Part shown: positions 971-42,271 of the stretch, one piece after another
Layout: each line of letters starts with the position of its first letter
Numbering within the stretch: the stretch's first letter is position 1
Source: a virus
Strand: one strand, 5' to 3'
Virus record (IMG/VR): IMGVR_UViG_3300007541_000044
Location: 1-42,346 of that record
DNA length: 42,346 nucleotides
Notes under the pieces: generated by a model
What the model was told of the DNA's origin: nothing
The model's database searches: none
What the model saw: the letters and a program-made list of their open reading frames with translations, nothing else
Made by a program: the position numbers and the translations under genes

Positions 971-2251
971 ATGGCAGACATTAGAATATCAGAACTATCA
1001 GATTTACAGAACGTCGAAGATAACGACGTTCTTGTAATCAATGATACTTCTGCGGCTACGACTAAAAGAATTACTCGCGAAAGATTCCTTTTAGGCATTA
1101 CAAGAAATGTCACGGACTCTGGCGACAATGTTATCATCAAAGAAGATGCGACGGTAAACAACGATCTCATTGTTGGTGGTGACATTGATGCGACGGGCGA
1201 CGTATCTTTTGGTTCGTTAACTGATGTTACTGCTGGCATCACAGCTAATCGATTCATTGGCACAGGTATTCAGAATCACGACAGCAACGGTGCTATTCCT
1301 ACTGCGGCGGCTGTTATCGATTATCTTGACTACTTCTTGTCGGATCTTTATGACTCAGCGACGCTTCCTGTTACCCTAGACGCTCTAACAAACGTTAGCA
1401 TTGTTACACCTCTTGCAGGAGAAGTTCTGAAGTGGAGTGGTTCTGCTTGGGTAAATGGCACTGACTCTGCCGGTATCGACAATCTTGGTGCGTTGACTGA
1501 TGTTCTTATCGGTGGGCTCACTGACGGGCAAGTGCTGAAATATAACGGTGCTTACTGGGTAAACGCTACAGACTCTAGCGGACCGACCACACTTGTTGAG
1601 TTGTCAGATGTTGTCATCACTTCACCAACTGTAAATCAAGTTCTTAAGTATAACGGAACGAAGTGGGTTAACGCCGCTGACTCTTCTGGCGGTGGTGGCG
1701 GTGGTGGCGGTGGGCTTGACAGTGCGCTAGCTACTCAACTTATTAACACTGAGATTACTTTAAATAGTCTGAGTGGTGTTTCTATTTCTTCTCCTACGAC
1801 GAATCAGGTAATTAAGTACAATGGATCGCAGTGGGTAAATGCGGCTGATTCGGGCGGAACAGGTTCGGGTCTTTCTTCTCGTGCAAATCTTACGGTACAG
1901 ACTGCATCCATTGCAGACCAAGATTCTGCTGATGTTGTCATTTCAGGTTATAAAGCATACTCTCTATTCAAGATTCAAACCGATCGTGCGGCTTGGGTGC
2001 GTGTTTATACTGACTCTGCGTCCAGAACGGCAGACCTTGGTCGACTACAAGCCGAAGACCCTCTTCCGGGTGCTGGTGTTGTTGCAGAAGTAATTACCTC
2101 TGGTGCAGAAACGATTAATCTTGCTCCTGCTCCTACTGGTTTCAACAATTCTTCGCCGGTGACGAATTCGATGCCGCTCAAGATTGTTAACTTGAGTGGA
2201 GTCACCAACCCCGTTGAAGTCACGCTGACGGCATTAAAGCTTGAAATATGA
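971..2251 (+). CDS. Repeat-containing tail fibre/appendage protein
   Basis: 426 residues, preceded by a late promoter and a GAGGA ribosome site. The N-terminus (MADIRISELSDLQ) resembles the start of fibre proteins in marine T4-like phages. Four imperfect ~30-residue units with the core QVLKYNGxxWVNAxDSSG begin near residues 139, 173, 209 and 264. A nine-glycine linker lies near residues 238-246. After residue ~300 a separate C-terminal domain follows (AYSLFKIQTDRAAWVRVY). At least ten DS dipeptides are present, several at the end of each repeat. The last codons overlap the protease gene by ATGA, so the two are probably made together. A fibre or baseplate-decoration role is inferred from repeats and position; I cannot name the T4 equivalent. 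Confidence 0.7.
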   Translation: MADIRISELSDLQNVEDNDVLVINDTSAATTKRITRERFLLGITRNVTDSGDNVIIKEDATVNNDLIVGGDIDATGDVSFGSLTDVTAGITANRFIGTGIQNHDSNGAIPTAAAVIDYLDYFLSDLYDSATLPVTLDALTNVSIVTPLAGEVLKWSGSAWVNGTDSAGIDNLGALTDVLIGGLTDGQVLKYNGAYWVNATDSSGPTTLVELSDVVITSPTVNQVLKYNGTKWVNAADSSGGGGGGGGGLDSALATQLINTEITLNSLSGVSISSPTTNQVIKYNGSQWVNAADSGGTGSGLSSRANLTVQTASIADQDSADVVISGYKAYSLFKIQTDRAAWVRVYTDSASRTADLGRLQAEDPLPGAGVVAEVITSGAETINLAPAPTGFNNSSPVTNSMPLKIVNLSGVTNPVEVTLTALKLEI

Positions 2252-4725
2252 GTTTAAAAGTCTATAACGTCATATTGCATCGAACAGAGGATCTCGACGC
2301 GTTTTACGCGGATATGGAATCCCCTGGTGGTAATCTTTACATACCGAATCGTGCTGTAGAATATGCCGCAAGACTTCCGTTTAGTCGCGTAACGCCTTAC
2401 AGACTCACAGAAGAAGAGGTCGAATTACTTAAAAACGATCCTCGTGTTCACACTGTTGAGCCTTCTTTAGACGAACATAATATTGGTCCCGAGCCTGTTT
2501 GGACACAATCGGGTAACTGGAGTAAGTCGCTGGGTGCGATCAACAACACTTATCGCAACTGGGCTCTGTATCAATGTACAGCCGCCGACGATCCTAATTG
2601 GGGCGAAAATGGTGCGTCTACTCTCGTGTCCAGTAGCGTTACAGTCAACGCAGAAGGGCTTGATGTTGATGTAATTGTCGTTGACGGTACGCCTAATTTA
2701 GATCATCCAGAATTCGCTGTCAATGCAGATGGTACTGGTGGTTCACGTATTATTCAGTACAACTGGTTTCAGCATACCGATTCTGTTACGGGTGGGCTTT
2801 ATTCTAACGGCACTTGGGATTACGACATTTGCAGTTTAGGTGATTCGTCTAACAACAATCACGGCGCGCACGTGATGGGCACTATTGTAGGTAATACTCA
2901 GGGTTGGGCAAGAAAAGCAAATGTTTACACTATCAGCCCATACTCTTCTAATTACAATTGGAAAACGTCTGGTGTAAGTTCTAGTTATGTGCTTGACTAT
3001 GTGCGAGCATTTCATCGAAACAAAGGTACTAATCCAAAAACTGGTCGTAAAAATCCAACGATTATCAATAACAGTTGGGGCTACAATTACGGGGTCACTG
3101 GTGAGTTTCCTTGGGCTAATGGCGACAGCGATATCGAAAAAATAGTATATCGCGGAACTACGTATAACGCGCCATTCACTTCTGAACAAATCTACAACTA
3201 TGCTGTGCCTGCTTGGTGGTCACTTACGAGAGCATATCGTGACTTTGGGTTTGATGTGAATACAGTAGCTGGAATTCCTGACGCATATACCTCAAACGTC
3301 CCTTGGTTTTTTCAATCGGTTGCAACAAAAACTCAAGAATGTATTGATGACGGAATCATAGTAGTATCTGCGGCAGGCAATAATAGTTCATATATTGACT
3401 CAGCAAATGGACCCGATTATAACAATCATGTTATTCTAAGAAACAAACGTTTCGGTTCTCTTCGTGCCGCTTATCAAAACGGCGACTCTGCTGTTTATTA
3501 TAACAGAGGTGCCGCCCCTGGGAATAGTTCGATTTGTGTAGGCAATGCTTCAATATATGAAAACAACCAGAGAGACTTTTCAAGTAACTTTGGACCAAGA
3601 ACAGATATCTTTGCCCCCGGCAATGAGATTATAAGCGCAATTCGTTTTAATGGCATTTACGACAAAGATACGACGGATGCTCGTAGCGGAAGTCATTACA
3701 TTGGTCAGATTAGTGGCACAAGCATGGCGTCTCCTCAGGTCACTGGTGTGCTTGCGTGTATGTTACAAAATTATCCTGACATGAAGCAGGCTGAGGCTCT
3801 AGCGTATCTTCAAAATAATTCGTTTAAAAACATTATGTTTGACTCTGCCCTTGATTGGGGCGATGTAACAAGCTGGAGCTATCCCGCTTTAAACGCTATA
3901 ACCACTGACTTAAAAAACACAGTCAACTACTATCTTCGATATAAAGAAGAGCGTCAAGTAACGGGCCCAACTGTACCCAAGTTGAATTTCAAAGAACGCC
4001 CAACAACTGGTGTTACGTGGCCCAGACTTAAGATTGCAAAAACCCGTAGATCAACTGGTGACATTCTGTACCCTTCAGCGGGTTCGAATCCAGAAGCGCC
4101 ACCAGAATCATTGTTGACTTACGTTGGTGATTTTGGAATCTCTTACGTTTCTGTTGATACTTATATTGACAGTGCTTCAGGGCTCGACTACTCGCCTTCT
4201 TATGCACCGGCAGGTTACGTGGGCGACTTCCTTGCTTCGTATACTGGAGATTATTTAGGTTCGTATCTTTCTACGTATGCTGGCGGTGTAGGATCGTCAT
4301 TTGAAGGAACTCCCTATGAGGGGTCTTATGACGCAGAAACTGGTGGCGGCACTACGTTTGTTGAGTATCTAGGTACATATATCCAAGGTGAAGCATCGTA
4401 TACTGGTAACTTCACGTCCGATTATTCAACATACACAGGTGATTTTGTTTCGAATTATGATGTACTTGTATATACAGGACCTGTTGTCACATATGGCTCG
4501 TATGTTCAAAATACAGGTTCTTATAGCCCAGGTAATCAGCTTGGCTATGTTGGTGCATATTCGGCTATTGACAGCGGCGGTGGCGGAGAAATATTCTTGG
4601 CGACATACATAGGTACATACGTACCTACTTATACTGATGCGGGTGTTTCTTCTTACCTAGCTTCTTATGATGCGGCTGATACGACTACATATACAGGCAA
4701 CTTTACGGTAGAATATAATGCATAA
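2248..4725 (+). CDS. Subtilisin-like (S8) serine protease with Tyr-rich C-terminal tail, virion-associated
   Basis: 825 residues. Residues ~1-75 look like an I9-type inhibitor propeptide (LTEEEVELLKNDPRVHTVEP). The S8 domain follows with D146 in IVVDGTPNLDHPE, H205 in NNNHGAHVMG and S492 in SGTSMASPQVTG, the order of the subtilisin triad; AAGNNSS near 380 fits the oxyanion-hole Asn. From ~residue 625 to the end there are many Y-x-G-(D/N/T)-(F/Y) repeats. There is no signal peptide, so the protein is probably carried in the virion rather than secreted. It overlaps its neighbours by 4 and 8 bases within the tail block. It may process fibre proteins or degrade host surface proteins; both roles are inference. 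All catalytic residues are present, so an active enzyme is likely. Confidence 0.85.
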   Translation: MSLKVYNVILHRTEDLDAFYADMESPGGNLYIPNRAVEYAARLPFSRVTPYRLTEEEVELLKNDPRVHTVEPSLDEHNIGPEPVWTQSGNWSKSLGAINNTYRNWALYQCTAADDPNWGENGASTLVSSSVTVNAEGLDVDVIVVDGTPNLDHPEFAVNADGTGGSRIIQYNWFQHTDSVTGGLYSNGTWDYDICSLGDSSNNNHGAHVMGTIVGNTQGWARKANVYTISPYSSNYNWKTSGVSSSYVLDYVRAFHRNKGTNPKTGRKNPTIINNSWGYNYGVTGEFPWANGDSDIEKIVYRGTTYNAPFTSEQIYNYAVPAWWSLTRAYRDFGFDVNTVAGIPDAYTSNVPWFFQSVATKTQECIDDGIIVVSAAGNNSSYIDSANGPDYNNHVILRNKRFGSLRAAYQNGDSAVYYNRGAAPGNSSICVGNASIYENNQRDFSSNFGPRTDIFAPGNEIISAIRFNGIYDKDTTDARSGSHYIGQISGTSMASPQVTGVLACMLQNYPDMKQAEALAYLQNNSFKNIMFDSALDWGDVTSWSYPALNAITTDLKNTVNYYLRYKEERQVTGPTVPKLNFKERPTTGVTWPRLKIAKTRRSTGDILYPSAGSNPEAPPESLLTYVGDFGISYVSVDTYIDSASGLDYSPSYAPAGYVGDFLASYTGDYLGSYLSTYAGGVGSSFEGTPYEGSYDAETGGGTTFVEYLGTYIQGEASYTGNFTSDYSTYTGDFVSNYDVLVYTGPVVTYGSYVQNTGSYSPGNQLGYVGAYSAIDSGGGGEIFLATYIGTYVPTYTDAGVSSYLASYDAADTTTYTGNFTVEYNA

Positions 4726-31332: not shown

Positions 31333-31429
31333 GGAACGAATGTTTGGGCAACTGCCAAATCCTGTGCACGAGCCCATTCGTTTTAAATACTATCTAAAAT
31401 TGTATCGATACTATACTAATCGCGTATAA
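31304..31429 (+). CDS. Small basic 41-residue protein after regA
   Basis: A TTG in the TTGA overlap with the regA stop (or ATG codons at 31331/31340) opens a frame with the sequence HIDRMERMFGQLPNPVHEPI followed by RFKYYLKLYRYYTNRV. The LPNP-x-x-EPI(R)-x-x-YY-x-KLY pattern resembles short proteins I recall in marine T4-like phages, so it is probably real. It is rich in Tyr and Arg/Lys. The same TTGA start overlap is seen at 40989. The stop codon lies inside the following late promoter. Function unknown. Confidence 0.6.
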   Translation: MTLNEHIDRMERMFGQLPNPVHEPIRFKYYLKLYRYYTNRV

Positions 31430-31432
31430 ATA
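31425..31432 (+). promoter_or_regulatory. hsp20: T4-type late promoter TATAAATA for Hsp20 island
   Basis: An exact late box lies 69 bases before the Hsp20 ATG, within the otherwise early replication block. The expected transcript start (about 6 bases after the box) coincides with the first base of the hairpin at 31438. Confidence 0.8.
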
Positions 31433-31501: not shown

Positions 31502-31960
31502 ATGGTAACTAAAGCATTTACATTCCCACGTTCGCATTTCATTGGATTTGACCATGTGTGGAACGAGATTGAACGTCTGGCTGACGTAGCAGACAATAAA
31601 CTCTACCCCCCTCACAATGTTGTGAAACACAGTGAATCAACGTATACTATCGAACTAGCGCTCGCTGGTTATAAAGCAGATGATCTTCACGTAGAAGTAA
31701 AAGAAGGCATTCTTGTAATTACAGGAGACAATCGTTCGACCGTAGATACCGAGGAAACTCGCGAGTATCTGCATCGCGGAATCTCTGGAAAGAAGTTCAC
31801 ACGCACCTTTAGATTATCAGAACATGTTGTTGTCGATGGAGCAGACTTCGTGGATGGGCTACTGGTCATAGACCTGAAAGTAGTTATCCCCGAGGAGAAG
31901 CGTCCCCGTACCATACCCATTGGCACTCAACAATATCTGGAATCTGAAGGAGAAGAATGA
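31502..31960 (+). CDS. hsp20: Hsp20 family small heat-shock protein
   Basis: 152 residues. An IbpA-like N-terminus (HFIGFDHVWNEIERLAD) is followed by an alpha-crystallin domain (YTIELALAGYKADDLHVEV, VKEGILVITGD, then EYLHRGISGKKFTRTFRLSE) and a C-terminal tail with PRTIPI supplying an I-x-I-type anchor. It is an ATP-independent holdase that would protect folding or assembling proteins. Hsp20 is a hallmark of T4-like cyanophages and related marine phages and sits here between regA and gp43. It has the strongest ribosome site in the window (AGGAGGT) and a late promoter, and is translationally coupled to the following secreted peptide. Confidence 0.95.
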   Translation: MVTKAFTFPRSHFIGFDHVWNEIERLADVADNKLYPPHNVVKHSESTYTIELALAGYKADDLHVEVKEGILVITGDNRSTVDTEETREYLHRGISGKKFTRTFRLSEHVVVDGADFVDGLLVIDLKVVIPEEKRPRTIPIGTQQYLESEGEE

Positions 31961-32151
31961 AAAAACTGGCACTCATTGCCTTAGTTTTTCTTTCACCATT
32001 CACCAGTGCTACAGAGATTGAAGAGATTGTGGTCAAGGCGCCGAGAATTACCATCGCCTTTGAAAAACTCTCTTCAAATCATAAGCGGAATCCTATTACT
32101 GGAAACTGGCACTACGTGAAGAAAAAAGAAGAAAAACGCAACAAGGCGTAA
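31957..32151 (+). CDS. Small secreted protein with TonB-box-like mature N-terminus
   Basis: 64 residues, ATGA overlap with hsp20. Residues 1-18 form a classical Sec signal (KK, then LALIALVFLSPF, cleavage predicted after T16-S17-A18). The mature 46-residue peptide begins TEIEEIVVKAPR, which closely resembles the TonB box at the mature N-terminus of TonB-dependent outer-membrane receptors of marine gammaproteobacteria (E-E-(I/V)-(V/I)-V-T-A). The rest is basic (HKRNPITGNW, KKKEEKRNK) with no barrel domain and no Cys for lipidation. Expected location is the periplasm. It could occupy TonB; the gene itself is well supported, the function is inference. Confidence 0.75.
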   Translation: MKKLALIALVFLSPFTSATEIEEIVVKAPRITIAFEKLSSNHKRNPITGNWHYVKKKEEKRNKA

Positions 32152-32153
32152 TG

Positions 32154-32161
32154 TATAAATA
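32154..32161 (+). promoter_or_regulatory. T4-type late promoter TATAAATA
   Basis: An exact late box begins two bases after the stop of the secreted peptide and 56 bases before the ATG at 32217. Confidence 0.78.
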
Positions 32162-32196: not shown

Positions 32197-32216
32197 TCCC
32201 TAATATGGAGACGAAG

Positions 32217-32333
32217 ATGATCAAAGTAATAGGCGATTACGTCAAAGATTTTTTTATGGGTCTTACTCATACTCAAGCTGGTTGGGTTACAGTAGCTACA
32301 GTCGGTGTTATTTTTCTGCTTGCTATCGTTTAA
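32217..32333 (+). CDS. 38-residue single-span membrane peptide
   Basis: ATG preceded by GGAG (32207-32210). The product begins MIKVIGDYVKDFFMGLTHTQ and continues AGWVTVATVGVIFLLAIV, i.e. a short amphipathic N-terminus and one transmembrane helix reaching the C-terminus. The GLTH-x-QAGWV motif is one I recall in tiny proteins of marine T4-like phages. It sits behind a late promoter and a leader hairpin, so it is likely produced late at the inner membrane. A holin-like or lysis-timing role is possible but unsupported. Confidence 0.75.
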   Translation: MIKVIGDYVKDFFMGLTHTQAGWVTVATVGVIFLLAIV

Positions 32334-41522: not shown

Positions 41523-41744
41523 ATGAAAAGCTTCGACAAGAAGCTCGCAAAGCAAGCGGTCAGCGATACGATCATAGCGACGCCTCTAAACATAGTTCTG
41601 AATTACGTTCTACTTAAAGTTTTTCTTCCATTTGAATTGAGCGCAGAGGTTATGACAATCGTCTTTACCTCTGTATTTTTTGTCGTAGCATGTATACGAA
41701 AGTATTTTGTTTTTTCTTATTTTAACAAGAGGATTTTTAAATGA
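41523..41744 (+). CDS. Small two-span membrane protein
   Basis: 73 residues. A basic N-terminus (MKSFDKKLAKQAVSD) is followed by two hydrophobic segments, near residues 18-35 (IIATPLNIVLNYVLLKVF) and 42-58 (EVMTIVFTSVFFVVACI), and a basic C-terminus (YFNKRIFK). Both ends are predicted cytoplasmic. The pattern recalls short phage membrane proteins of the DUF2061/GtrA-like size class, without firm assignment. ATGA overlap with the peroxiredoxin. Confidence 0.65.
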   Translation: MKSFDKKLAKQAVSDTIIATPLNIVLNYVLLKVFLPFELSAEVMTIVFTSVFFVVACIRKYFVFSYFNKRIFK

Positions 41745-42271
41745 GTACGCATGAACCTGTTCCGTATGTGACTTTTCGAACTCGCGTTCGCGACGAATCC
41801 ATTGGTGGTGACAATCCTTATCGCTGGCAAGATGTGACCACTGAAGACCTGTTCACTGGCAAGCGTGTTGTAGTGTTCTCGCTACCTGGTGCGTTTACGC
41901 CCACTTGCTCTACTATGCAACTGCCTGGCTTCGAAGAGAACGCTCAGAAGTTCTATGACGCGGGCATTGACGAGATTTATTGCATTTCTGTGAATGATTC
42001 ATTTGTGATGAATGCATGGGCAAAGGCTCAAGGGCTCAAGCATGTTAAAGTGATTCCTGACGGTTCGGGTTACTTCACTGATGACATGGGTATGCTTGTC
42101 GATAAAGACAATCTAGGATTTGGTAAGCGCTCTTGGCGCTATGCGATGGTCGTAGACAACGGCATCGTCGAAAAATACTTTGTCGAGCCTGGGCGTAAAG
42201 ACAACTGCGAGACTGACCCCTACGGTGAGACCACTCCCGAAAAAATCATGGAATACTTGGGTATTGAGTAA
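41741..42271 (+). CDS. Peroxiredoxin (Prx5-type thioredoxin-fold peroxidase)
   Basis: 176 residues. The Prx active site PGAFTPTCST with C56 is complete (P-x-x-x-T-x-x-C), followed by EIYCISVNDSFVMNAWAK and PDGSGYFTDDMGML, all typical of the Prx5/AhpE-like group. C156 near the C-terminus matches the position of the resolving Cys in atypical 2-Cys Prx5; C81 is a third Cys. It reduces hydroperoxides, probably guarding the infected cell from oxidative stress. It overlaps the upstream membrane protein (ATGA) and touches the next gene (TAATG). Confidence 0.93.
   Translation: MSTHEPVPYVTFRTRVRDESIGGDNPYRWQDVTTEDLFTGKRVVVFSLPGAFTPTCSTMQLPGFEENAQKFYDAGIDEIYCISVNDSFVMNAWAKAQGLKHVKVIPDGSGYFTDDMGMLVDKDNLGFGKRSWRYAMVVDNGIVEKYFVEPGRKDNCETDPYGETTPEKIMEYLGIE

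Follow-up and report, generated by a model that had tools for sequence, protein, structure and literature searches.

A predicted secreted peptide of marine T4-like phages carries a TonB-box-like mature N-terminus and may act as a TonB decoy

In marine Gram-negative bacteria, TonB supplies the energy for taking up iron, B12 and much carbohydrate; phages and bacteriocins also use it as a way into the cell. The TonB boxes of TonB-dependent receptors (TBDRs) bind the TonB C-terminal domain by parallel pairing with strand beta3, a form of beta augmentation (PMC11658791). Boxes are also found in proteins that are not receptors, such as the group B colicins and klebicin C, which carry one near a flexible N-terminus (PMC11658791). 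A free pentapeptide with a TonB-box sequence, ETVIV, has served to inhibit TonB in vivo, as cited from Tuckman and Osburne (1992) in PMC5413942. Phages encode small envelope proteins, T5 Llp and Cor of phi80 and N15, whose presumed role is to close TonB-dependent routes of entry or uptake. These proteins are lipid-anchored, with a lipobox and a Cys at mature position +1 as their hallmark, and bind one receptor, FhuA. In the case of Llp, the FhuA plug is jammed and the TonB box is left untouched (PMC9586334).

The gene described here lies in a stretch of 42,346 nucleotides (the window), part of a T4-like virus record with terminase, portal, capsid, gp43, gp44-46 and UvsX-like genes (named from ORF translations). 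The nearest named relative of the window by DNA is Phage C48C1 (Kyanoviridae). The features of the locus are listed in Table 1. The precursor consists of a signal peptide, MKKLALIALVFLSPFTSA, and a mature chain, TEIEEIVVKAPRITIAFEKLSSNHKRNPITGNWHYVKKKEEKRNKA, with cleavage placed after residue 18 by a simple signal-peptide rule. The T-S-A cleavage site is followed by TEIEEIVVKAPR, and the peptide sequence bearing the box is TEIEEIVVKAPRITIAF. The first-pass annotation of this DNA had described a Sec signal with a T-S-A site, a box at once behind it and no barrel thereafter; the ORF is organized exactly so, comprises 64 aa in all and has no Pfam Plug or barrel match. The same annotation held that only 46 basic residues follow the box, which is incorrect in length, as 46 residues make up the whole mature chain including the box. 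Nor is the chain merely basic, because it contains a second conserved motif (consensus H-x-Q-[ND]-P-x-[TS]-G-x-W-x-Y-V), and only its last ~10 residues are variable.

Table 1. Features of the hsp20-peptide locus in the window
Feature	Position	Strand	Basis
Predicted secreted TonB-box peptide gene, 64 aa	31957..32151	+	ORF; homologues in viral contigs
hsp20, small heat-shock protein, translationally coupled partner	31502..31960	+	Pfam PF00011 E=5.5e-15; phrog_432 E=5.8e-37
T4-type late promoter TATAAATA for the hsp20-peptide pair	31425..31432	+	77 bases upstream of hsp20
Signal peptide, residues 1-18, signal-peptidase-I type site T-S-A	31957..32010	+	Sequence; rule-based call
TonB-box-like segment EIEEIVVKAPR, residues 20-30, mature N-terminus	32014..32046	+	Conservation, dN/dS, genome string and HMM searches
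Second conserved motif HKRNPITGNWHYV, residues 42-54, predicted short beta hairpin	32080..32118	+	Invariant residues; strands in both AlphaFold2 models
Variable charged C-terminal tail	32119..32148	+	Alignment

Like TBDRs (Pfam PF07715 Plug, PF00593 barrel), the phage peptide places [DE]IEE[IV]VVKA immediately behind a signal peptide, and TBDRs of SAR86, marine gammaproteobacteria and Rhodobiaceae carry the same box string. Unlike TBDRs, it has neither a plug nor a 22-strand barrel, and the short mature chain ends with a hairpin motif of its own. Group B colicins and klebicin C enter from outside, have no signal peptide and contain large toxin domains, alongside receptor-binding domains in group B colicins, whereas the phage peptide has a Sec signal and a small mature chain; import from outside in the manner of group B colicins was rejected as the main reading on account of this signal. 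ETVIV, as described in the source cited above, is a short synthetic peptide added from outside, whereas the phage peptide is gene-coded, predicted to be exported and equipped with the second motif. The window peptide contains no Cys, so it has no lipobox; its cleavage site is A-like and followed by T/S/N, and the Cys of 31 of the 35 homologues sits at position 10, inside the hydrophobic core of the signal peptide. A lipoprotein was thus ruled out, and in this respect the peptide, which is of the signal-peptidase-I type and whose mimicry is predicted to be aimed at TonB, differs from Llp and Cor.

The start codon of the peptide gene overlaps the hsp20 stop codon (ATGA, 31957-31960) and is preceded by a Shine-Dalgarno sequence rated good (AAGGAGA, 31947-31953). 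Together with the late promoter upstream of hsp20, the overlap is consistent with the earlier view that the peptide is coupled to hsp20 and expressed late. TATAAATA occurs six times in the window, where 1.73 occurrences would be expected; every copy is on the + strand, a short way ahead of an ORF. The promoter is retained ~500-570 nt before the peptide gene in 24 of the 30 distinct homologous loci with enough upstream DNA. Similarly, hsp20 lies directly upstream in 39 of the 40 loci in which this side is readable, the exception being L043. Given that the gp43 proteins of family-bearing phages are only 44-73% identical and that other genes vary widely, hsp20 and the peptide gene travel together as a pair.

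The peptide gene is followed by ORFs for a 42-aa membrane peptide, a 242-aa protein and gp43. The first of these (32205-32333) encodes a single-span peptide and has its own TATAAATA late promoter at 32154-32161. At the equivalent site, related phages without the box peptide have a small ORF for a single-span membrane protein or else no recognisable feature; the small membrane ORFs that come after hsp20 in these phages resemble the product of 32205-32333. The L050 group differs in encoding a 95-aa version, MKRILALVLALGLSASVSA (signal peptide) and NDIEEVKVYATKI...DTWHYIG, which matches the family HMM with E=4.8e-5. This divergent relative (L050:3515-3802, and L261-L270) has the box DIEEVKVYATKI and the motif DTWHYIG, occupies the same place downstream of hsp20 and, in L050, adjoins another small secreted ORF (3249-3518). 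Elsewhere in the window, an 825-aa protein with a subtilisin-like serine protease signature (NNSWG, GTSMASPQVTG) is encoded among tail-fibre-like genes (2248-4725). A peroxiredoxin-like gene (41741-42271) is possibly a host-derived auxiliary gene and a clue to the host; a search of the window for tRNA genes, another such clue, gave none.

Scans of viral contigs yielded 43 and then 56 loci encoding 35 distinct proteins. All 35 have a signal peptide by the rule-based call and a box resembling [DE]-[ILVM]-E-E-[VIL]-V-V-K-A no more than a few residues behind the cleavage site. These homologues, together with synonymous change far above non-synonymous change, indicate a real gene, and by sequence the peptide is a conserved, previously undescribed phage family. 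No relatives were detected in 50,697 named phage genomes, nor in Phage C48C1, and matches to Pfam, PHROG, NCBIfam and PDB sequences were at chance level only. Cellular genomes contained no full-length relatives, and a host origin of the whole gene is therefore unsupported. An earlier description of the peptide was not found in the open-access literature.

In the codon alignment, dN/dS for pairs of >70% identity is ~0.013 in the box, ~0.118 in the signal peptide, ~0.161 in the middle and ~0.202 in the tail; since the pairs are non-independent, it is the contrast between the box and the rest that counts and not the exact digits. For the hairpin motif synonymous change is saturated, and pN/pS is 0.18 versus 0.03 for the box. 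Six residues are invariant in all 35 members (E22, E23, H42, P46, W51 and Y53), while V25 and V26 are kept in 33. The EE[IV]VV core is thus the most conserved part, and by these measures the box is the most constrained stretch of the peptide.

Across 84,980 species genomes, just 19 stretches contain [DE]IEE[IVM]VVKA as an exact string. Five of them lie right behind a signal peptide, and all five belong to TBDRs by Pfam Plug (two from SAR86, two from other gammaproteobacteria and one from Rhodobiaceae). Another seven lie just before a plug and follow a CarboxypepD-like domain at the N-terminus; four of these were scanned, and each showed Plug. The remaining seven are unrelated strings, either internal or out-of-frame. 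A search of 2.9 million viral contigs found the string 41 times, 40 times in the peptide family and once in an unrelated 414-aa protein. The family HMM gave 8, 17 and 1 matches (26 in total, E<=1e-3) in sets of 296, 203 and 18 marine-type genomes (517), which represent the orders of three receptor-bearing marine bacteria. Because these orders were picked for holding matching receptors, the match rates are not general, and specificity is what counts. All 26 matches cover the part with the signal peptide and the box (model positions ~1-39) and fall in frames of 475-1142 aa; each of the 21 whose DNA was read looks like a TBDR N-terminus, and Pfam Plug was found in 18 of 18 scanned. With the ten box columns shuffled and the rest of the model untouched, there were no matches in the set of 296 and two in the set of 203, both in frames of ~435 aa, not of receptor size. 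One marine gammaproteobacterial genome was examined over ~0.8 Mb: two of the 143 signal-peptide-like ORFs there have a box, and both are TBDRs by sequence. From the string, HMM, control and ORF results it follows that, in the collections searched, the box combined with a signal peptide is specific to TBDRs and the phage family. The phage box is indistinguishable by profile from TBDR boxes; string, HMM and permuted control, as independent tests, all point to TBDRs, as the first-pass annotation had proposed in calling the segment a TonB-box mimic. At the level of sequence, TonB-box mimicry is well supported.

A sister of this string, IEE[IV][IV]VTA, is present in several phage proteins that lack a signal peptide (L315, L305, L333, L367 and L295). 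These proteins have 89-522 aa and belong to no clear family, two have weak tail-protein matches, and the string lies mostly near the N-terminus; it could be due to chance or mark virion proteins that meet TonB. The box string by itself was rejected as proof because of these non-secreted proteins, and only the combination of box and signal peptide is diagnostic. The same strings would fit a coincidental likeness, in which the peptide has no link to receptor boxes and is simply a small phage protein of the periplasm or envelope whose N-terminus forms a V-rich strand or helix; one conceivable task is remodelling of the envelope late in infection, together with Hsp20. The strict linkage to hsp20, which encodes a cytoplasmic chaperone, would suit such a role, as would the AlphaFold2 model of the precursor (26 sequences, mean pLDDT 69), which draws residues 21-41, across the box, as a helix of low confidence. 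However, this helix vanishes once the signal peptide is removed: in the model of the mature chain (23 sequences) the N-terminus with the box is unstructured (pLDDT 59-63). Moreover, position, length and residues all fit receptor boxes, and the profile matches are receptors whenever they were read and disappear with the permuted control, so that coincidence is quite unlikely. The first-pass annotation had raised the possibility that the box is buried in an unrelated fold; AlphaFold2 gives no confident fold of this kind, and the mature N-terminus is modelled as accessible. In both models the second motif forms short hairpin strands (pLDDT ~80). A fold search with the mature model found no structural relatives, and the model is too weak for more to be expected.

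The reading favoured here, with a likelihood a little above even, is that the peptide acts as a TonB decoy in the periplasm, in competition with TBDRs, and that this likely serves to exclude TonB-dependent phages or bacteriocins late in infection. The peptide would be expressed late, exported by Sec and retained as a periplasmic mini-protein, whose free mature N-terminus would be a working mimic of the TonB box of host TBDRs. Since receptor boxes pair with TonB and ETVIV has served to block it, a free box in a late periplasmic peptide should compete for TonB. The peptide thus probably occupies TonB during infection, and TBDRs would be starved of energy at a late stage. The benefit may be the exclusion of phages or bacteriocins that require TonB, or the protection of progeny and cell at lysis, while the stop of nutrient uptake would be a side effect. 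On the other side, T4-like phages of this kind are not known to depend on TonB themselves. We infer TonB binding, inhibition and benefit and, from the marine Gram-negative setting only, a host that possesses TonB. Nothing supports release of the peptide at lysis to act on neighbours. In its working the peptide would resemble a TonB-box inhibitor peptide, and in its service perhaps Llp and Cor; it is a member of neither group and is not a receptor.

The conserved hairpin motif implies that there is more to the peptide than a decoy alone; behind the box it would probably add stability or a second contact. It is also the main reason to keep in play a tether, judged unlikely, in which the box docks the peptide at TonB so that HxQNPxTGxWxYV can act there, with any receptor block incidental. 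The hairpin could act, for example, on ExbD, peptidoglycan or a receptor, or TonB force could move the peptide. Four residues of the motif are invariant across the 35 members, which a pure decoy would not need, and of the whole peptide only the hairpin reaches some confidence in the models. However, the motif has no relatives in PDB, Pfam, NCBIfam or PHROGs, so that no partner is suggested, and the box is more constrained than the motif.

Blockade from the receptor side is highly improbable. Here the peptide would bind a TBDR from the periplasm, with its box or its hairpin in place of the receptor's own N-terminus, and close it. Llp on FhuA shows that small phage proteins can jam a TBDR from this side (PMC9586334), and the box could pair with strands of the plug or signalling domain, as in FpvA (PMC11658791). 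However, Llp uses no TonB box, and the lipobox and cysteine pair of Llp and Cor are missing. Furthermore, the box has been kept in phages that share only 44-73% likeness in their other genes. Receptors vary, so a target that is itself conserved, such as TonB, is the better match. The comparison with T5 Llp made in the first-pass annotation holds only loosely: Llp is an earlier case of a phage blocking TonB-dependent entry, but it jams the plug and leaves the box alone.

If the decoy reading is correct, the peptide would be a natural gene-coded TonB-box decoy by which phages attack the energy hub itself. It would provide a small genetic tool and a lead for TonB blocking, and how late-infected cells exclude competitors would become directly testable with one 46-residue peptide. 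More tentatively, with a likelihood a little short of even, an exported family of TonB-box mimics in marine T4-like phages, a case of short-linear-motif mimicry, may hijack or shut off host TonB, resulting in a general blockade of all TBDRs. Aimed at the hub and not at one receptor, this would be a previously undescribed phage strategy.

Apparent full-length TBDRs are also present in many viral contigs (L294, L321, L334, L365 and ~30 other loci among L294-L373). They comprise 590-690 aa, with a signal peptide followed by DEIEEIVVTAQQEK, show Pfam Plug in four of four scanned and match phrog_5687 (function not annotated). Many of them adjoin UvsX, UvsW or terminase genes whose products are 23-31% identical to window proteins, and distant T4-like phages seem to carry a TBDR of their own.
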